64,000 nt of DNA, from assembly GCF_008362905.1 (NCBI RefSeq), contig NZ_VFJB01000005.1, positions 248,001 to 312,000 of the forward strand, in the 5' to 3' direction. The notes beneath the pieces are model-generated. The model had not been told where the DNA came from. It did not search any database and worked only from the letters and a program-made list of their open reading frames with translations. The stretch's first letter is position 1; each line of letters starts with the position of its first letter. Shown here one piece after another: positions 11,468-21,541 of the stretch. The DNA is from Deferribacter autotrophicus. Its GTDB lineage: Bacteria > Chrysiogenota > Deferribacteres > Deferribacterales > Deferribacteraceae. The position numbers and the translations under genes are program-made.

Positions 11468-12316
11468 ATGAGAAAAATTTTTCTTAATTTTGTAATATTT
11501 ATTTTTTTGTTTATTCCATTGATTTCTAATGCAGAGCTAAATTTCGGGATAGCCTCAATGATTTCTCCTGATGAAACATATTTTTTGTACAAAGATTTTG
11601 GCAATTATATTGCGAAAAAGCTCGGAATAAAAATAAATGCTATTTTTAGAAGAAATTATGCTGATATGAATAGACTTATTGAAACTGGCCAAGTTGATTT
11701 TGCATCTATTTGTACCGGAGCTTTGATTTATCTAAATAATAAAAAATACGAAATTGCTGCTGTTCCAGTAGTAAACGGTAAAAGTACATATAAATCATAC
11801 ATTATTGTAAATAAAAATTATGGGATAAATAATATTGATGAATTACGGGGCAAGGTTTTTGCGTTTACTGATAGATTGTCAAATAGTGGTTATATTTATC
11901 CCACATATTTGATTTTAAAAAAAGAGAAAGTAAAACCAGAACAGTTTTTTTCTCGTATTTATTTTACAAACAGTCATGATAAATCAATTTATCTTGTCAA
12001 CGAAGGTGTTGTGGATGGTGCTGCTGTGGATAGCCTTGTTTTTGAATATGTGTCACATTCACAACCAGAAAAAGTTAAAAATATCAAGATAGTACATGAA
12101 TCTGATGAGTTTTTATCTCCACCTTTTGTTGTTTCAACATATCTTGATAAAAATATCAAACAAAGACTAAAAAGAGTTTTACTTAATATGCATAAAAATG
12201 AAGAAGGTGCTAAAATACTAAAAAAATTAAAAATAGATAAATTTGTTGAACCTGATTATAAACTTTTGAAAAAAGTTTTAACTATGCGGAAGTTTTTAAA
12301 TACGTTTAATAATTAG
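11468..12316 (+). CDS. PhnD-like periplasmic substrate-binding protein
   Basis: A 282-residue secreted protein with a signal peptide (about 1-22, cleavage after SNA) and a PhnD/phosphonate-type binding fold (LNFGIASMISPDET, GQVDFASICTGALIYL, VVDGAAVDSLVFEY). No permease or ATPase gene is near. A histidine kinase and an NtrC-type regulator follow instead, so it is probably a ligand sensor rather than a transporter part. Such proteins serve AioXSR and ArrXSR arsenic systems, and TtrS carries a related domain. Its only mature-chain cysteine, Cys82, sits in the expected ligand-site segment. The ligand is unknown. Confidence 0.82.
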   Translation: MRKIFLNFVIFIFLFIPLISNAELNFGIASMISPDETYFLYKDFGNYIAKKLGIKINAIFRRNYADMNRLIETGQVDFASICTGALIYLNNKKYEIAAVPVVNGKSTYKSYIIVNKNYGINNIDELRGKVFAFTDRLSNSGYIYPTYLILKKEKVKPEQFFSRIYFTNSHDKSIYLVNEGVVDGAAVDSLVFEYVSHSQPEKVKNIKIVHESDEFLSPPFVVSTYLDKNIKQRLKRVLLNMHKNEEGAKILKKLKIDKFVEPDYKLLKKVLTMRKFLNTFNN

Positions 12317-12387
12317 TTTTACCTGTTTTTTGGGTATAAAAAATATTATTTTTTGCTGAAAAGAAGCATGGAACTGTTTTATTTATA

Positions 12388-12429
12388 AGGGGCCCGTCCT
12401 TATACGGACGAAATTTTGATGCAACCCCT
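12388..12429 (+). other. Possible structured leader before the kinase gene
   Basis: The 158-base gap between the binding-protein and kinase genes holds a locally GC-rich nested pair of arms: agggg (12388-12392) with cccct (12425-12429), enclosing cgtcc (12395-12399) with ggacg (12406-12410). It could fold in RNA as a two-stem element. It has no T run to act as a terminator, and it did not match a riboswitch class recalled by eye. Confidence 0.3.
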
Positions 12430-12446
12430 AGAATAATTGTTTGAAA

Positions 12447-12466
12447 GGAGCTAATTAGAGTTAGCT
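12447..12466 (+). promoter_or_regulatory. Ribosome site joined to a small hairpin
   Basis: GGAG (12447-12450) is 24 bases before the kinase ATG at 12475, too far for normal use. A perfect 6-bp stem agctaa/ttagct (12449-12454, 12461-12466) lies between. Folding would shorten the effective distance but also bury the last two bases of the site. Confidence 0.35.
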
Positions 12467-12474
12467 GATTAACA

Positions 12475-13854
12475 ATGATACGAAAATTATTCCGTTTTTT
12501 ACCACCAAGGTTAAAACATAGAGTTAGTTTACTAATTGGCTTTTTAGGTGCAGGTACTGTAATTGTAAATTTAATAGTCCTTTTTGTTTATTTAAACAGC
12601 TTTTTGAAAAATAATATTGAACACATTATCGATTCTAACTTTAAAATCAATGAGTATAACTTAACTGAAGCAATACTTTATGATGATGTTTATACTATTT
12701 TTGAGACTTTAAAAAAAATAACAGAGAATTCTCCATACATAAGTGATATTTACCTTTTTGATAAAAACAAAAGATATGTTTTGGATTCAAAGGTTAAAAG
12801 AGATGCAAAGACACTTCAGGATTTTGATAAGGTAAATTTTAAAAGGGTAAAAACAATAAAGATAAAAGACGAGCCTATTGGATATTTGGTATTTTTAATA
12901 GATCAAATGTTTATAATTAATGAAATTAAGAATAATCTTTTAAATTTAGCAATGATTAATTTTGCGATTATTTTCTTTGGGGTTATGTTAGGGCTTTATC
13001 TAACAAAAATTTTGATTAGACCTATGAACAGTTTTATAAATCAGATAAATGAACTAGATTATGATAAATTGCCTTTTAAAACCTCTGTGCCAGAATATGC
13101 TTCATACGAGATTAAAAAATTATCAGATACATTAAACAATATGTCAGAAAGATTGGCCGCAGCTTTGAATAAACTTTATGAAGAGGAAAGAAAGGTTAGA
13201 AAAAATGAAAAGCTTGCGTCAATAGGAATGATGGCTGCAGGTCTTGCTCATGAACTAAAAAACCCTATTATGACGATAAATCTTATTGTTTATCAGCTGA
13301 AAAAATGTTCTGCCGCAAACAATAGTTGTTCTGAAGATTTAAAAGTTATTCAAAATGAAGCAAATAGGCTTGTGAAAAGAATAAATGAATTTTTGGAGTA
13401 TTCAAAACCTGTAGATGTTAGAAAAGCAGATGTAGAAGTAGAAAGTATAAATTATGAATTGAGACAATATGTAATGAAAAGATTTGATAATGTTTCTTTA
13501 AAGATTATTTATGATTTAAAGAAAATTTATACTGACAAAGAGAAGTTGCTTCAGGTGTTACTAAATCTTATAAATAACTCAATTGAAGCTAAGGCAAACG
13601 AAATAATAATGAAAGTTACAAGAGATAATAGTGATATAATTATTGAATTTGAGGATAATGGTGAAGGTATTTCTCTAGAAAGTGAAGATAAAATATTTAT
13701 GCCATTTTATACAACTAAGTCATCAGGGACTGGTCTTGGATTAGCTATTTGTGATATGATTATTACTGCAATGGATGGGGAGTTAGTTTTTGAAAGGGGG
13801 AGGGAAAATGGTGCAAAATTTATAATAAGATTGAGGGATGCGTATGTCTGCTAG
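12475..13854 (+). CDS. Sensor histidine kinase
   Basis: A 459-residue inner-membrane kinase. Membrane segments at about 17-40 and 157-180 flank a periplasmic domain of about 115 residues. A HAMP-like segment (about 181-235), a dimerisation domain with His259 in GLAHELKNPI, and an ATPase domain with NLINNSIEA, DNGEG and GTGLGLAI follow. It overlaps the response-regulator gene, so the two form a pair. The binding-protein gene upstream suggests that the periplasmic domain reads a ligand-loaded partner. A stop codon just upstream in frame fixes the N-terminus near this ATG. Confidence 0.93.
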   Translation: MIRKLFRFLPPRLKHRVSLLIGFLGAGTVIVNLIVLFVYLNSFLKNNIEHIIDSNFKINEYNLTEAILYDDVYTIFETLKKITENSPYISDIYLFDKNKRYVLDSKVKRDAKTLQDFDKVNFKRVKTIKIKDEPIGYLVFLIDQMFIINEIKNNLLNLAMINFAIIFFGVMLGLYLTKILIRPMNSFINQINELDYDKLPFKTSVPEYASYEIKKLSDTLNNMSERLAAALNKLYEEERKVRKNEKLASIGMMAAGLAHELKNPIMTINLIVYQLKKCSAANNSCSEDLKVIQNEANRLVKRINEFLEYSKPVDVRKADVEVESINYELRQYVMKRFDNVSLKIIYDLKKIYTDKEKLLQVLLNLINNSIEAKANEIIMKVTRDNSDIIIEFEDNGEGISLESEDKIFMPFYTTKSSGTGLGLAICDMIITAMDGELVFERGRENGAKFIIRLRDAYVC

Positions 13855-15229
13855 AGTTCTTATTGTGGATGATGATAATGCGCTGTGTTATAGTTTGAAA
13901 AGAGTCTTAGGTGATCATTTTGATGTATATACTGCATTGAATATGGATGAAGCATTAAATCATCTAAAAAGTATCAAGTTTGATATTATGTTTCTTGATT
14001 ACAAGCTTGGAGAAATAAATGGCTTGGATGTGTTGGAGGAGGCTAAAAAGATAGATGCTAATCTCCCTGTGGTGGTTATGACAGCTTATGGAACTAGTAA
14101 TTTAATTCTTGATAGTATTAAAATGGGAGCTATTGAATATCTTGTTAAACCTGTTGCCCCAGATGAGTTGATTAAAATTATAAATAAATTGAAAAGAACT
14201 GACTTGGGAGAATCTTGTCCTGAAAATAGTTATAAAATAGATGATTATGAATATCATGAAAATATTTTTATAGGTTCTTCTCCAGTTATGAAAGATGTTA
14301 TGGTCTTGGTAGCAAATGTGGCAAGGACTGATTATCCGGTATTAATTACAGGTGAGAGTGGAACAGGTAAGGAGCTTATTGCAAAAATAATTCATCAGTA
14401 TAGTAAACGAAGTGAATCTGTTTTTATTCCAATTAACTGTGCAGCCATCCCTGAAGAGCTACTGGAGAGTGAGCTTTTTGGTTATGAAAAAGGTGCATTT
14501 ACAGGTGCAGAAAAAGGAAAACTTGGGAAGTTTGAGTTAGCACATAATGGCACAATATTTCTTGATGAAATTGGAGATATGTCTATAGATTTGCAGGCAA
14601 AACTTTTAAGAGTTTTACAGGACGGTACAATTGAAAAACTTGGTTGCAGTAAGTTCCATTATGTAAATGTCCGAATTATTGCTGCTACAAATAAGAACTT
14701 AAAATCAATGATTAGAGAAGGGAAATTTAGAGAGGATTTGTTTTACAGGTTAAATGTGGTGAATATCCATTTGCCTCCATTGAGAGAGCGCAAAGACGAT
14801 ATAAAGGAGCTTGCAATTTATTTTGCAAAAAAATATTCAAAGGAATTAAATAAAAGAATATGCTGCATAGAAAATGAAGTTTTTGAAATATTAAAGGAAT
14901 ATAATTGGCCAGGAAATGTAAGAGAACTAGAAAATGTGATTAGAAAAGCAGTTTTGATTACAAGGGATAATCTAATAAAAGTGGAAGATATTAAGATTGA
15001 TGGTGAAATTGAAAAAAAAGATGTTCAAGATATTACAGAGTATTTTACAAGTAAATATAAATACAATCTTCTGGAAAAGAGTGTTGAAGAAGTGGAAGAA
15101 AAATTGATTAGAAAGGCACTAAAAATGACAAATTATCATTTGAGTAATACAGCAGAATTACTTGGTATAAGCAGAGTTACTCTTAATGCAAAACTCAAAA
15201 AATATGGAATAAAATCTGCTAATAGTTGA
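13844..15229 (+). CDS. NtrC-family sigma-54 response regulator
   Basis: A 461-residue activator of sigma-54 promoters. Domains in order are a receiver with phospho-acceptor Asp52 in MFLDYKLG, an AAA+ domain with GESGTGKE (170-177) and the sigma-54 contact loop GAFTGA (217-222), and a Fis-type helix-turn-helix at the end (AELLGISRVTLNAKLKKYG). ATG 13844 is preferred over ATG 13838 because GAGGG lies six bases before it. It overlaps the kinase gene by 11 bases. A sigma-54 promoter lies 2.4 kb downstream before the molybdopterin reductase pair and is a likely target; rpoN is also in this window. Confidence 0.95.
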   Translation: MSARVLIVDDDNALCYSLKRVLGDHFDVYTALNMDEALNHLKSIKFDIMFLDYKLGEINGLDVLEEAKKIDANLPVVVMTAYGTSNLILDSIKMGAIEYLVKPVAPDELIKIINKLKRTDLGESCPENSYKIDDYEYHENIFIGSSPVMKDVMVLVANVARTDYPVLITGESGTGKELIAKIIHQYSKRSESVFIPINCAAIPEELLESELFGYEKGAFTGAEKGKLGKFELAHNGTIFLDEIGDMSIDLQAKLLRVLQDGTIEKLGCSKFHYVNVRIIAATNKNLKSMIREGKFREDLFYRLNVVNIHLPPLRERKDDIKELAIYFAKKYSKELNKRICCIENEVFEILKEYNWPGNVRELENVIRKAVLITRDNLIKVEDIKIDGEIEKKDVQDITEYFTSKYKYNLLEKSVEEVEEKLIRKALKMTNYHLSNTAELLGISRVTLNAKLKKYGIKSANS

Positions 15230-15295: not shown

Positions 15296-16342
15296 TTATA
15301 AATTTTGGAAGTAACGTTTTTGAAAATATAAAGCCACATTTACAAGTCCAATCATAACAGGCACTTCTACAAGAGGTCCTATTACGGCAGCAAAGGCAGC
15401 TCCTGAGTTTATTCCAAAGACAGCCACAGAAACAGCTATGGCAAGCTCAAAATTGTTACTTGCAGATGTAAAGGCAAGGGTTGTGGTTTTGCTATAATCA
15501 GCACCTATCTTTTTCCCTATATAGAATGAGACAAAGAACATTATTACAAAATATAAAAGTAATGGAATTGCTATTCTTATCACATCCATTGGTAGCTGCA
15601 CAATTAATTTCCCTTTGAGGCTAAACATTACCACAATTGTAAAAAGCAGAGAAATAAGAGTTAGAGGGCTGATTTTTGGTATTACAACCTGATGATACTT
15701 TTCTCTACCCATAATTTTTACACCTATAAATCTTGTGATCATTCCAGCGATGAATGGTATACCAAGATAGATAAAAACACTTTTGGCAATCTGCGATATA
15801 GTTATATTTACTACTGCTCCATGCAACCCGAAATATTTGGGAAGAATGGTTATAAAAATCCATGCATAAACAGAGTAAAAAAGCACCTGAAAGATTGAGT
15901 TGAAAGCAACAAGTCCAGCTGCGTACTCTGTATCTCCTTTCGCAAGCTCATTCCATACAATTACCATAGCTATACATCTTGCAAGGCCAATCATTATCAG
16001 TCCAACCATATATTCAGGGTAATTCCTAAGGAAAGTAATAGCTATAAAAAACATTAAAATCGGACCAATAACCCAGTTTTGTAATAGAGAGATAAAGAGG
16101 ATTTTTAAATTTCTAAAAACATCTGGCAATTCTTCATATCTAACTTTTGCAAAGGGTGGGTACATCATAAGAATCAATCCAATAGCAATCGGGATATTGG
16201 TTGTACCAATCTGAAATTTGTTTATTATATTTACAACAGATGGGACATAATAACCAACCCCTACACCAAAAATCATTGCAATGAAAATCCATAATGTTAA
16301 ATAGCGGTCAATAAAAGATAGTTTCTTTGATACCAGTTCCAT
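15296..16342 (-). CDS. acr3: Arsenite efflux permease, ACR3 family
   Basis: A 348-residue inner-membrane protein with about ten hydrophobic segments that exports arsenite by exchange with protons. The ACR3 signature is seen in [14 protein letters not shown], with Cys123 and Glu132 as the residues important in known family members. The length is normal. It has a GGAG ribosome site and is the last gene of the arsR-arsC-acr3 operon, 12 bases after arsC. It supplies the export step after cytoplasmic arsenate reduction. Confidence 0.95.
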
Positions 16343-16354
16343 AAAGCTTTTCTC

Positions 16355-16771
16355 CTATATCAATTTACTCAGTTCGTTTTTAATATAATTTTTTATTTCA
16401 TCTCTAACTTTTCTAAAAACTTGAAGAATTTCATCTTCACTTCCTGTTGCCTTTGCAGGATCTTCAAATCCTCTGTGAATGATCTTTGCTTTTGCAAGAT
16501 AAGCTGGGCATGTTTCATTGGCATGGCCACAAACTGTAACCACCACATCAAAATCAATGTCACTAAGGTCATTTAGAGTCTTTGAGTAGTGATTGCTTAC
16601 ATCCACACCATCTTCTTCCATAACTTTTATCATGTAATGATTGAGTCCATGTTTTTCGATGCCTGCCGAATAAACATCGAATCTATCACCAAGGTATAAC
16701 CTCCCGTATCCTTCTGCCATCTGACTCCTACATGAATTTCCTGTGCACAAAAAAAGAAGCTTTTTTTTCAT
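16355..16771 (-). CDS. arsC: Arsenate reductase, thioredoxin-coupled
   Basis: A 138-residue enzyme with a low-molecular-weight phosphatase fold that reduces arsenate to arsenite for export. All catalytic residues of the Staphylococcus-type family are present: the P-loop CTGNSCRS with Cys9, and the redox pair Cys81 and Cys88 in VCGHANETCP. It has a GAGGTG ribosome site and overlaps the end of the upstream arsR fusion gene by four bases. This is a detoxification enzyme, distinct from a respiratory arsenate reductase. Confidence 0.96.
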   Translation of the reverse strand: MKKKLLFLCTGNSCRSQMAEGYGRLYLGDRFDVYSAGIEKHGLNHYMIKVMEEDGVDVSNHYSKTLNDLSDIDFDVVVTVCGHANETCPAYLAKAKIIHRGFEDPAKATGSEDEILQVFRKVRDEIKNYIKNELSKLI

Positions 16772-17466
16772 AAATACACCTCACATTTTTCAATCAGTTT
16801 TTTTCTCATATCTTTTGGTTTGAGATTTTTTATATCATTCAAATTGATAGTTTCGATTTTACCAAATTTAATATTTAAATTTTCAATATTATCAAAGTCG
16901 TTTAAAATTAAGACAAGATCAAAGTAATATTTTTTAAAGTTGCTAATATTTTTTGTGAAAAATCTTAATTCTGCATACTCTTTCGGATATAATTTCTTTA
17001 TTAAAGGATTTACCTCTGGAGCAGGTGCAATTCCTGCACTTACACAGGTTATGTTATCTTTTTTTGATAATTCGATTTCAATAATTTGACTATATAAAGA
17101 ATTGTCATAATCTACCACTAAAATCTTTTTTGCAGGTATGCAGCTATTTTTATTTGATGAAAGTTTTTTTAAATCTGTAAGTGCAGTTTCACTTTTTAAA
17201 AAGTTATTTAGCACTTCATTGAGGATAATTTTTTTTGATTTTTCTAGATGTTCATTTATTCTGTAATATGTCCATTTACCATCTTTCATATCAACTAAAA
17301 TATTTGCTTGTTTCAATTTAGAGAGGTGTGTGGACAAAGTTGATTGTTTTAATTCTAAAACATTTTCAAGATCACACACACATAATTGACCTTGATAATT
17401 AATCAGATTTAAAATCCTTAATTTATTTTTGTCAGAAATTGCTTTCAAAAATTTTTCCATAGACAT
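16768..17466 (-). CDS. arsR: ArsR repressor fused to a degenerate ArsC-like domain
   Basis: A 232-residue protein, about twice the length of ArsR. Residues 1-95 are an ArsR winged helix with LCVCDL (Cys29, Cys31) for arsenite binding and the recognition segment QSTLSTHLSKLK. Residues 112-232 align by eye with the neighbouring ArsC: KKILVVDYDNSLYSQ against the P-loop, VSAGIAPAPEVNPLIKKL, and YFDLVLILNDFDN. The catalytic Cys and Arg of the P-loop and the redox cysteines are gone, so the domain should be inactive. It heads the ars operon, and its start lies seven bases after a -10 box with no ribosome site. Confidence 0.88.
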   Translation of the reverse strand: MSMEKFLKAISDKNKLRILNLINYQGQLCVCDLENVLELKQSTLSTHLSKLKQANILVDMKDGKWTYYRINEHLEKSKKIILNEVLNNFLKSETALTDLKKLSSNKNSCIPAKKILVVDYDNSLYSQIIEIELSKKDNITCVSAGIAPAPEVNPLIKKLYPKEYAELRFFTKNISNFKKYYFDLVLILNDFDNIENLNIKFGKIETINLNDIKNLKPKDMRKKLIEKCEVYL

Positions 17467-17473
17467 GGCGGCA

Positions 17474-17501
17474 AATATATCTATGTATCACGATATGTCA
17501 A
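17474..17501 (-). promoter_or_regulatory. arsR operon promoter with dyad in the spacer
   Basis: On the minus strand, TTGACA (17496-17501) and TATATT (17474-17479) are 16 bases apart. The dyad tatc-N2-gata (17486-17495) sits in the spacer next to the -35 box and is a candidate ArsR operator. The -10 box ends seven bases before the ATG, so the mRNA would be almost leaderless. Confidence 0.6.
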
Positions 17502-17662: not shown

Positions 17663-18403
17663 ATGAGCGAATCTATAATTTTGCGTATGCAAAAGGACTT
17701 GGAAAGAGCGCTTTTAAAACCAGCTAACAAAAGAAAGTGGGTTATGCTGGTGGATATTAGAAAGTGTACTGGATGCCATTCGTGCTCTGTGGCGTGCAAA
17801 GCTGAAAACAAAACACCAGAAGGTGTAAACTATCGTTGGGTGAAAGAAGCTGAAGATGGAGAATTCCCAAATGTTATGAGAATATTTATGCCTGGACTTT
17901 GTATGCAGTGTGATAATGCCCCATGTATTAAAGCTTGTCCATCTGGTGCGATTTACAAACGAGAAGATGGCATCGTTGCCATTGATTATTCAAAATGTCA
18001 AAGCTGTGGTGGTGCAGCAGTTGATGCTTGTCCATATTCAGCTATATCAGTTGATAAGGGTAATTATTATACTGAAGGCACTCCAGAAATTATGGATTAT
18101 GAAAAAGGACCAATCTTTGAATATGGTCATAAATATGAGAGGGTTGGTGAGAATTTACCAATAGGTAGCTGTAGAAAATGTCATTATTGTCTTCATAGAC
18201 TTGAGATGGGTATGCTTCCTACATGTGTGACAACATGTCTTGGTGGTGCAAATTATTTCGGTGATATTAATGATCCTGAAAGTCTTGTATATCAAAAAGC
18301 AAAAGAGTTGAATGTTTATACGTTCCTTGCGGGTGAAGGTACGAAACCTACTACAAAATATGTAGCTGATGATATAGAGCTTTGTAAAAAATGTCATGAA
18401 TAA
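17663..18403 (+). CDS. Four-cluster iron-sulfur subunit of a molybdopterin reductase
   Basis: A 246-residue ferredoxin-like electron-transfer subunit of the PsrB/TtrB/ArrB type, passing electrons to the catalytic subunit. Cysteine groups are at 35/38/41/45, 80/83/88/92, 112/115/(118 is Ala)/123 and 170/173/176/188/192. In the third group the usual third cysteine is replaced by alanine, and the last is shifted by one residue. The C-terminal CLHRLEMGMLPTCVTTCLGGA is typical of TtrB- and PsrB-like subunits. It has no signal peptide of its own and probably rides with the TAT-exported partner. No membrane-anchor gene follows. Confidence 0.87.
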   Translation: MSESIILRMQKDLERALLKPANKRKWVMLVDIRKCTGCHSCSVACKAENKTPEGVNYRWVKEAEDGEFPNVMRIFMPGLCMQCDNAPCIKACPSGAIYKREDGIVAIDYSKCQSCGGAAVDACPYSAISVDKGNYYTEGTPEIMDYEKGPIFEYGHKYERVGENLPIGSCRKCHYCLHRLEMGMLPTCVTTCLGGANYFGDINDPESLVYQKAKELNVYTFLAGEGTKPTTKYVADDIELCKKCHE

Positions 18404-18436
18404 AATAATTTTAAATATTTAATGTGGAGGTAATTT

Positions 18437-21400
18437 ATGAGTAAAAAATCTATTGTGGATAAAATAGAGGTTAATAGAAGAGGCTTTTTAAAATCGTCTG
18501 CCTTTTTAGGTGGTTCTGTTATGCTTATGTCACAGCTTGGCTGTGTTCAGAAAAAGTTGGATGAGATGTCAAAGAAAGGTGAACTTTCAAAATATGTGTT
18601 AGCAAAACCAGAGCATGTAATTTATTCTGTTTGTTTGCAGTGTCACACAGCATGTAATATTAAATGTAAGGTTTATGATGGTGTATTACATAAAATAGAT
18701 GGTAATCCATATTCTGCTCAAAATATGTATGAAAATTTACCTTACAATACTCCAGTGGATGTAGCTGCAAGAATTGATGGTAAAATATGTCCTAAGGGAC
18801 AAGCAGGTGTGCAAACATTGTATGATCCATATAGAATTGTGAAGGTTTTAAAAAGAGCTGGTAAGAGAGGTGAAAATAAGTGGAAAGCTATTCCTTTTGA
18901 GCAAGCTGTAAAAGAAATTGTTGAAGGTGGATACCTTTTTAAAGATGTGCCAGGTGAAGAGAACAGAAAGGTTGAAGGTTTAAAAGATATCTTCAAAGTG
19001 CGTGATCCAAAACTTATGAAGCAGATGGCAAAAGATGCTAAAGCTCTTGCAGAAAAGAAAATGAGCTGGTCAGAGTTTAAGTCAAAGTACGCAGGTAAAA
19101 TGGATTTATTTGCAAATCCTGACCATCCTGATGCAGGGCCTTACAACAACAAATTTGTTTTTATGGCAGGTCGTATTGAGCATGGCCGTAAAGAATTTAT
19201 GAAGAGATTTATGAAAGATTGTTTTGGTTCAGTAAACTTCTATGAGCATACCACAATTTGTGAACAATCTCACCATATTGGTTTTGCTGAAATGTTTAAT
19301 GGTAAACATCATTTAAAACCAGATTTGATGGAATGTAAATTTGTTATTTATTTTGGTACAGGTGGTTTTGAAGCTAATTTTGGTCCACCACCTATATCTG
19401 AAAAGCTTACTGCAGGTTATACTGAAAAAAATATGAAAATTGCAGTGGTTGATCCACGTATGTCCAAGACTGCTGCAAAAGCTGATTATTGGGTGCCAAT
19501 AAGACCAGGGACTGATGCAGCATTTGCTCTTGCAATGGGTAGATACATTATTGAGACCGGGAGATATGATAAGAAATATCTATCAGCGGCAAATTACAAA
19601 GCAGCTTATTCGATAAATGAGACAACCTTTACAAATTCAACATGGCTTGTGAAAATCGAAAAAGATGGGCCAGGTGCGTTCCTTAAACCATCAGAAATTG
19701 GTTTATCTGGTGATTTTGTTGTTATGAAGGATGGCAAGCCTGTTGCTGGTAAGAAGAAAGGGGATGCTGTCTTTGGAGATCTTTTTGTAGATACAGTGAT
19801 AAACGGTATAAAGGTAAAATCAGCGTTCCAGATTTATTATGATTCTACAAAGTCAAGAACTCTTAAAGAGTGGGCTGATTTATGTGATGTTCCAGTTGAG
19901 CAAATAATTACATTAGCAAGAGAATTTACATCTTATGGTAAAAAAGCAGCTATAGATTTTTATCGTGGTCCAGTTCAACATACAAATGGGTATTACAATG
20001 CAACAGCAATAATAGCTCTTAACTTACTTATAGGAAATGTTGATTGGGCTGGTGGTCTTTCTGTAGGTGGTGGACATTGGCATGAATATGGTGGCAAAAA
20101 AGGTAATCCTTTTAATATGAAAAAACTTGTTAAAAATAAACTTGGGACATTTGGATATCCTGTAACTCGTGAAAAAACAAAATATGAAAAGACAACATTT
20201 TTCAATGGATATCCAGCGAAGAGACCATTTTACCCATTTACCGGGAATGTTTATCAAGAGATTATACCTTCAGCATATGAAGGTTATCCTTATGATGTAA
20301 AATGTCTTATGATACATAAAGGTACACCTGCGTTTGCTTCTCCAGCTGGTCATGTGTTTATAGAAATGCTTAAAGATGTTAATAGGATACCTCTATTAAT
20401 TGGTAGTGATATTGTTATTGGTGAAACAACTATGTATTGTGATTACATTTTTCCAGATAAAGCTATATGGGAAAGATGGGGATTTTCACATCCAACACCT
20501 GACAACACAGTGAAAGTTTCCAAAATCAGACAACCTGTTGTAAATCCTATGACTGATAAAACTAAGGTATATGGTCAGGAAGTCCATCTTGGTATGGAAA
20601 CATTGATGTATGCAATTGCTGAGCAGTTGAATTTACCTGGTTTTGGTAAAGATGGATTCGGTCCTGGTTTAGATAATTACAGAGAGGAAGATTTTTATCT
20701 GAAACTTGCTGAAAATATCGCAATGGAAGGAGCACCTGTTCCAGATGCTGATGCAAAAGAGATTGATGTTTTCTTCAACGCTAGAAAACATTTAACAAAA
20801 GCTGCTTTTGATGTGGCTAAAGTGAAAGAGAGTCCAAACTGGAAGAAAATTGTTTATGTATTGAACAGAGGTGGAAGATTTGAGCATACAAGTAGAGCGC
20901 ATAAGGGTGATAAACTGGCTTATCAGTACAAAAAAGATATAAGTCTTTATGTGGAGAGTGTTGCACAAACAAGAGATTCTATGACAGGTAAAAGATTTTA
21001 TGGTTATCCAGTTTATGTACCTGCTGCTGATATGTTTGATAGACCTTTGAAACAGGATGGCTATGATTTACATTTGATAAGTTATAAAGAGATAACAGGG
21101 GGACAGTCCAGGACTTCTAGTAACTACTGGATGCTAGACTTGTATCTTGATGAAAACTTTATATGGATGAATAGTAAAGATGCCGATAGACTTGGTTTGA
21201 GTGATGGAGATACAGCAAAAATTGTTTCACCAACTAACCCTGATGGTGTATGGGATTTGAAAAATGGTATGAAAATTAAGATGATTGGTAAAGTAAAAGT
21301 GAGTGAAGCGATCAAGCCAGGAACTGTTGCAGTTAGCTGGCACTATGGACATTGGGCATATGGCTCACACGATGTTGTAGTAGATGGAAAGGTAATTAAA

Positions 21401-21541
21401 GGGGATAAAAGAAGAGCGACTGGACTTTGTCCAAATGCTGCAATGCTTGTTGATCCTGTACTGAAAAACATGTGTCTCACAGACAAAATTGGTGGTAGTG
21501 CCTCCTTTTATGATACACATGTAAAAGTAGTTAAGGCATAA
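18437..21541 (+). CDS. TAT-exported molybdopterin reductase, catalytic subunit (TtrA/SreA/ArrA-like)
   Basis: A 1034-residue member of the DMSO reductase family. A twin-arginine signal (RRGFLK, 14-19) leads to the periplasm, with Cys36 after LG as a weak lipobox. The N-terminal cluster motif is CLQCHTACNIKC (Cys66, 69, 73), completed by Cys118 in GKICPKGQ. Cys275 in FYEHTTICEQSHH is the likely molybdenum ligand. Length and the VEGLKDI region recall tetrathionate and sulfur reductase subunits (TtrA, SreA, SrdA). The arsenic genes and possible metalloid sensor alongside argue for arsenate or another metalloid. The substrate is therefore open. A GGAGG site precedes the start. Confidence 0.85.
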   Translation: MSKKSIVDKIEVNRRGFLKSSAFLGGSVMLMSQLGCVQKKLDEMSKKGELSKYVLAKPEHVIYSVCLQCHTACNIKCKVYDGVLHKIDGNPYSAQNMYENLPYNTPVDVAARIDGKICPKGQAGVQTLYDPYRIVKVLKRAGKRGENKWKAIPFEQAVKEIVEGGYLFKDVPGEENRKVEGLKDIFKVRDPKLMKQMAKDAKALAEKKMSWSEFKSKYAGKMDLFANPDHPDAGPYNNKFVFMAGRIEHGRKEFMKRFMKDCFGSVNFYEHTTICEQSHHIGFAEMFNGKHHLKPDLMECKFVIYFGTGGFEANFGPPPISEKLTAGYTEKNMKIAVVDPRMSKTAAKADYWVPIRPGTDAAFALAMGRYIIETGRYDKKYLSAANYKAAYSINETTFTNSTWLVKIEKDGPGAFLKPSEIGLSGDFVVMKDGKPVAGKKKGDAVFGDLFVDTVINGIKVKSAFQIYYDSTKSRTLKEWADLCDVPVEQIITLAREFTSYGKKAAIDFYRGPVQHTNGYYNATAIIALNLLIGNVDWAGGLSVGGGHWHEYGGKKGNPFNMKKLVKNKLGTFGYPVTREKTKYEKTTFFNGYPAKRPFYPFTGNVYQEIIPSAYEGYPYDVKCLMIHKGTPAFASPAGHVFIEMLKDVNRIPLLIGSDIVIGETTMYCDYIFPDKAIWERWGFSHPTPDNTVKVSKIRQPVVNPMTDKTKVYGQEVHLGMETLMYAIAEQLNLPGFGKDGFGPGLDNYREEDFYLKLAENIAMEGAPVPDADAKEIDVFFNARKHLTKAAFDVAKVKESPNWKKIVYVLNRGGRFEHTSRAHKGDKLAYQYKKDISLYVESVAQTRDSMTGKRFYGYPVYVPAADMFDRPLKQDGYDLHLISYKEITGGQSRTSSNYWMLDLYLDENFIWMNSKDADRLGLSDGDTAKIVSPTNPDGVWDLKNGMKIKMIGKVKVSEAIKPGTVAVSWHYGHWAYGSHDVVVDGKVIKGDKRRATGLCPNAAMLVDPVLKNMCLTDKIGGSASFYDTHVKVVKA

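Follow-up and report, generated by a model that had tools for sequence, protein, structure and literature searches.

An ArsR repressor fused to a catalytically dead ArsC-like domain is conserved in the ars operon of Deferribacter

The window analyzed here, a stretch of 64,000 nucleotides from Deferribacter autotrophicus taken from an assembly of 10 contigs and 2,535,300 bases, carries an ars operon on its reverse strand. The first gene encodes an ArsR repressor joined to an ArsC-like domain, the second a separate arsenate reductase and the third an arsenite efflux permease (Table 1). The 3' end of the fusion reading frame overlaps arsC by 4 bp, and this arsC is the sole LMWPc match in the D. 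autotrophicus genome.

Table 1. Features of the ars operon and of the fusion protein, in coordinates of the window
Feature	Coordinates	Strand	Remarks
arsR::pseudo-arsC fusion gene	16768..17466	-	232 aa, ATG start, single ORF
arsC, thioredoxin-type arsenate reductase	16355..16771	-	TIGR02691, 170 bits; all catalytic residues present
acr3, arsenite efflux permease	15296..16342	-	TIGR00832, 461.6 bits
Promoter/operator TTGACATATCGTGATACATAGATATATT	17474..17501	-	-35 TTGACA, imperfect palindrome ATATCG-N8-AGATAT, -10 TATATT
ArsR half, residues 1-109	17140..17466	-	NF033788; comparison with the order's stand-alone ArsRs
C29-V30-C31, canonical As(III)-binding motif of ArsR	17374..17382	-	Unchanged in each of the order's five fusions; recognition-helix region
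Pseudo-ArsC domain, about residues 112-232	16771..17133	-	LMW-phosphatase fold without catalytic residues
Ex-P-loop, residues 119-127, DYDNSLYSQ	17086..17112	-	Canonical CTGNSCRSQ; D. desulfuricans DDKNDLYSQ
Ex-redox loop, residues 185-210	16837..16914	-	C82/C89 lost, shortened, constraint gone

Facing the operon on the forward strand (11468-15229) are genes for a phosphonate-type periplasmic binding protein, a histidine kinase and a sigma54-type response regulator in a row, a set of sensing genes with likeness to XSR or TtrSR modules. Divergent from it, also on the forward strand (17663-21541), is a TtrB/TtrA-like molybdoenzyme pair with no adjacent membrane anchor; the molybdoenzyme scores 507 bits against the TtrA model, which is below the model cut-off, and 138 bits against ArrA. 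The pair fits the description of the D. autotrophicus genome as having a tetrathionate reductase without TtrC (PMC6896113), and D. desulfuricans has no such pair at the corresponding place.

A TTGACA-N16-TATnnT box, its -35 element perfect, was found just upstream of the fusion start in all five fusion loci identified in the order. An inverted repeat extends across the spacer between the -35 and -10 elements and reads ATATCG...CGATAT in D. desulfuricans; judging from its position, an ArsR repressor bound there would block transcription. The box occurs once per genome in all five genomes, upstream of the fusion, which suggests a one-operon regulon. The pattern was derived from the five fusion sites, so that its presence there is by construction and its uniqueness is not.

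The ArsR half of the fusion is complete. Against the ArsR/SmtB metalloregulator model NF033788, residues 4-73 score 78.7 bits (cut-off 55), and the PF01022 match scores 47.8 bits (cut-off 22). Stand-alone ArsRs of Deferribacterales share the CVC motif and a terminal cysteine with the fusion and differ from it in having no extra domain. Their terminal cysteine corresponds to Cys109, just ahead of the junction, indicating that the ArsR part is whole and that the second domain begins past its natural end.

A Pfam search of the C-terminal part returned no match, PF01451 included. A profile of 43 canonical ArsCs scored this domain at 26.3 bits, while the best of 2610 shuffled sequences reached 6.5; the D. 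desulfuricans copy scored 23.0 bits, which none of about 2600 shuffles attained. BLAST against the fused domain of a related family, where it is intact, gave an E value of 4e-17, and the alignment to ArsC preserves both order and spacing. An AlphaFold2 model of the full protein, built with four family members, had a pLDDT of 87 and retrieved Deinococcus ArsC first in a Foldseek search against the PDB, with ArsR/SmtB structures also among the matches. A stricter model, for which just the two dead sequences were used, had modest confidence (pLDDT 61) and again placed ArsC at the top, the best match of both models being 8p6m; the fold is therefore not an unrelated one. The C-terminal domain shares ancestry and fold with thioredoxin-coupled ArsC and LMW phosphatases, and the profile, BLAST and fold evidence rules out a misaligned or unrelated domain. 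A receiver domain was also considered, given the sequence KILIVDD in D. desulfuricans, and rejected: there was no Response_reg match, and in the fold search receivers came well behind ArsC.

A reading made from the sequence alone had described this gene as ArsR joined to a dead ArsC-like domain, and the comparison with ArsC bears this out. In Staphylococcus aureus ArsC numbering, the substitutions are C10 to D119, C15 to L124, R16 to Y125, C82 to Ile, D105 to Thr and P106 to Ile, and C89 is deleted. The nucleophile, the P-loop arginine, both redox cysteines and the general acid have each been replaced or lost: the CX5R P-loop reads D-x-x-N-x-L-Y-S in both Deferribacter genomes, the general-acid DP motif is Thr-Ile, and the fusion has no catalytically competent ArsC half. 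The reference set of 43 ArsCs was chosen by P-loop pattern, which makes invariance at C10, N13 and R16 a matter of construction but not that at C82, C89 and D105. Retained ArsC residues are N13 and S17 (N122 and S126 of the fusion), Q18, SAG, the SK lysine and the FD aspartate. Compared with thioredoxin-coupled ArsC of the pI258 type (TIGR02691), the domain has the fold and the N13, S17 and SAG scaffold in common, yet it lacks any catalytic residue and falls below Pfam detection. Near the C-terminus, Cys228 (codon 16783-16785; EKCE/KKCE) is kept in both Deferribacter copies and missing from intact relatives.

The fusion was identified in five of the 46 genomes of the order (G000, G001, G008, G015, G021), each time as a single reading frame without a stop. 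In all five the next gene of the operon is a separate intact arsC. Both Deferribacter copies are dead; D. desulfuricans (G001) shares the replacements D119, L124, Y125 and threonine at D105, a comparison of two genomes only. The other three belong to family f8, which we infer to be Deferrivibrionaceae, with one locus on a contig of Deferribacteraceae bacterium M2_7_5_bin.3. These fusions (L003, L004, L005) resemble the Deferribacter ones in their place before arsC, their operator, the CxC motif and the terminal cysteine, but they retain a CTxNSCRSQ P-loop, C82 and D105, having lost C89 and the proline of DP. A tree places the fused domains from both families together in one clade (bootstrap 96, SH-aLRT 89); its stems are long, and long-branch attraction is possible; the operon, the operator and the ArsR half agree with a single clade. 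The Acr3-like permease encoded by the third gene of the operon differs clearly between Deferrivibrionaceae (L192:3061-4110, L003:2639-3685) and Deferribacter; with fusion and arsC common to both families, this amounts to a transporter swap inside a conserved operon.

Several other candidates were set aside. A scan of genome contigs with ArsR patterns returned mostly stand-alone ArsRs, its sole fusion being the metagenome-assembled genome already known, and locus L200, which has a doubtful N-terminus, was left out of the counts. In G237, G332 and G280, arsR and arsC are adjacent genes with stops between them, plasmid matches of the window protein proved to be neighboring arsR and arsC genes, and Sphingobium CAP-1 has two reading frames.

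Fusions of ArsR with an active ArsC domain are known, as the sequence-only reading had noted. ArsR-ArsC fusion proteins have been described from Leptospirillum ferriphilum, Microbacterium, Sinorhizobium and the actinobacterial clusters C4 and C7 (PMC6205960, PMC6514093). Like the Deferribacter protein, they combine an ArsR N-terminus and an ArsC-type C-terminus in one chain and are found in ars operons. The intact fusions outside the order that we read keep the active-site Cys, Arg and Asp, none of which is present in Deferribacter, and lack the CxC As(III) site that Deferribacter retains. A wider sample added 21 plasmid-borne fusions of Actinobacteria and Alphaproteobacteria (including L224-L239, L190, L111, L158, L161 and L162), from lineages too few for statistics. 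C10, R16, C82 and D105 are retained in all 21, and C89 is absent from each of the 11 actinobacterial sequences. CxC occurs in no ArsR half of this sample, and 12 of the 21 are entirely without cysteine in that half. Among these proteins the ArsC half is the likelier input, rather than the ArsR half, and those with an intact P-loop and no CxC are candidate arsenate sensors. Neighboring genes include arsC, pstS, aquaporin and gapdh-arsJ. Intact queries were used to gather the plasmid sample, so dead domains are at least as frequent as it suggests. A fusion in the reverse order, ArsC-ArsR, was seen ahead of gapdh-arsJ on a plasmid of Pseudoalteromonas sp. CF6-2 (L159:4010-4774).

A second dead fusion was detected in G331 and G385 (L134:1345-2139, L155), the only two genomes examined of their class, which is not that of Deferribacter. 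Here too ArsR is joined to an ArsC domain without its nucleophile: the loop reads GTGNACRSQ, with Cys to Gly at the nucleophile and C82 to Ser. Unlike the Deferribacter domain, it keeps Arg, C89 and D105, and it lies outside any ars operon, upstream of a murA-like gene. In the tree it falls among ordinary ArsCs, so it arose separately. Purifying selection is indicated by dN/dS values of 0.084 for its dead ArsC part and 0.102 for its ArsR part.

Comparison of the two Deferribacter copies shows where the dead domain is still constrained. Between them, the ArsR halves are 62.6% identical, the ArsC-like halves 48.8% and the separate ArsC proteins 80.4%; for the live Deferrivibrionaceae pair the values are 60.8%, 53.8% and 83.6%. 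Synonymous divergence in the Deferribacter pair looks saturated (5 of 12 four-fold sites the same), and the ArsC-like half has no stops, while a stop arose in at least one copy in each of 2000 runs of a neutral simulation (four divergence levels, 500 runs per level). The segment beta1-P-loop-alpha1-beta2 (residues 113-149) is 68% identical in the dead pair and 62% in the live pair; in the ex-redox loop the values are 31% and 72% (Fisher p 0.003). Constraint has therefore gone where catalysis alone would require it, and it persists at the former pocket, where D119, L124 and Y125 are newly invariant in both copies. As far as the two sequences tell, the dead domain is not private decay, its dead state being conserved and common to both genomes, and a dead copy still preserved by evolution is probably a non-enzymatic part of the switch and not an enzyme.

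The explanation we favor, with a probability of roughly 0.55, is that the protein is an ordinary As(III)-derepressed ArsR whose appended pseudo-ArsC domain has been retained for a non-catalytic role, as a structural or contact module. The fusion would repress its own operon by binding the palindrome between the -35 and -10 elements, and As(III) produced by the active stand-alone ArsC would bind C29 and C31, possibly with C109, and release the repressor. The pseudoenzyme domain would descend from a fusion with the P-loop still present in its ArsC part; the Deferribacter copy presumably no longer binds or reduces arsenate, and the ex-P-loop face may have been remade as a contact or stability surface. 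This reading draws its support from the complete ArsR half with CxC, the unique operator, whose conserved palindrome is indirect evidence of DNA binding, the shared losses, the constraint on the P-loop core, the intact arsC and the second dead fusion. Conservation of beta1-alpha1-beta2 could reflect fold maintenance alone, and a ligand not recognizable from sequence might occupy a remade pocket.

The sequence-only reading had also raised sensing of arsenate or phosphate by the dead domain. An altered P-loop that recognizes an oxyanion and tunes the repressor would be in keeping with the P-loop region being the best conserved part, with N122 and S126 retained, and with fusions elsewhere whose intact ArsC half beside an ArsR half without CxC suggests that the domain can be the input. 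In both Deferribacter genomes, however, the anion-binding arginine is now tyrosine and the cysteine is aspartate, which puts a negative charge in the pocket, and an As(III) site is already present in the ArsR half. We consider oxyanion sensing by the Deferribacter copy unlikely because of these P-loop replacements.

Another possibility is that the operon's active ArsC, or thioredoxin, docks onto the domain, which would couple the state of the enzyme to repression or deliver As(III) to the CxC site. The invariable position of arsC as the next gene in all five genomes, with the 4 bp overlap, is what such coupling might leave behind, all the more as the acr3 type differs between families. ArsC is, as far as is known, a monomeric enzyme, though, and the ex-redox loop, the expected thioredoxin-contacting part, is just the portion without constraint, which makes docking improbable.

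Simple decay was the objection that a survey of relatives could have upheld, and it did so in part. Homologs with an intact P-loop exist in Deferrivibrionaceae and the redox loop is relaxed, as expected if the fused arsC copy had lost selection in Deferribacter with its deletion still to come. Such a relic would hardly show the same replacements in both genomes, a stop-free frame with 49% protein identity at near-saturated synonymous divergence, or a P-loop core conserved as in the live pair, and we regard it as quite improbable. Least probable of all is conversion of the pocket into a new site, for example an acidic cation-binding or receiver-like one, which would suit the invariance of D119 at the end of beta1, the newly invariant L124, Y125 and Cys228 and the KILIVDD of D. 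desulfuricans, but just one of two acidic positions is common to both genomes and the receiver comparison described above was negative.

Returning to the conserved pseudo-ArsC module, we tentatively place it in a wider series in which ArsR-ArsC fusions may have turned a reductase stepwise into a non-enzymatic regulatory domain, the input moving between an arsenate-type site of the ArsC half and an arsenite site of the ArsR half. In such a series, fusions of Rhodobacterales arsJ operons would keep all residues and have lost CxC from ArsR; those of Actinobacteria would have lost the resolving C89, with a cysteine-free ArsR half and often arsC or pstS alongside; that of Deferrivibrio would keep the P-loop and CxC and have lost C89; and in that of Deferribacter, with everything lost except CxC, the fused half would be a genuine pseudoenzyme module whose pocket has been remade.

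Although ArsR-ArsC fusions are known, a literature search with most subscription journals outside its scope found no description of a conserved catalytically dead one. Deferribacter, a genus of deep-sea vents, has an ars repressor with a welded-on copy of the reductase whose whole active site has been replaced. Together with their relatives, these proteins form a natural live-to-dead series of an enzyme domain on one repressor, in which the operator and the neighboring arsC stay constant, making the role of the fused ArsC half directly testable. They also raise the question of whether intact cysteine-poor fusions elsewhere may act as arsenate sensors, unlike the usual arsenite-sensing ArsR.
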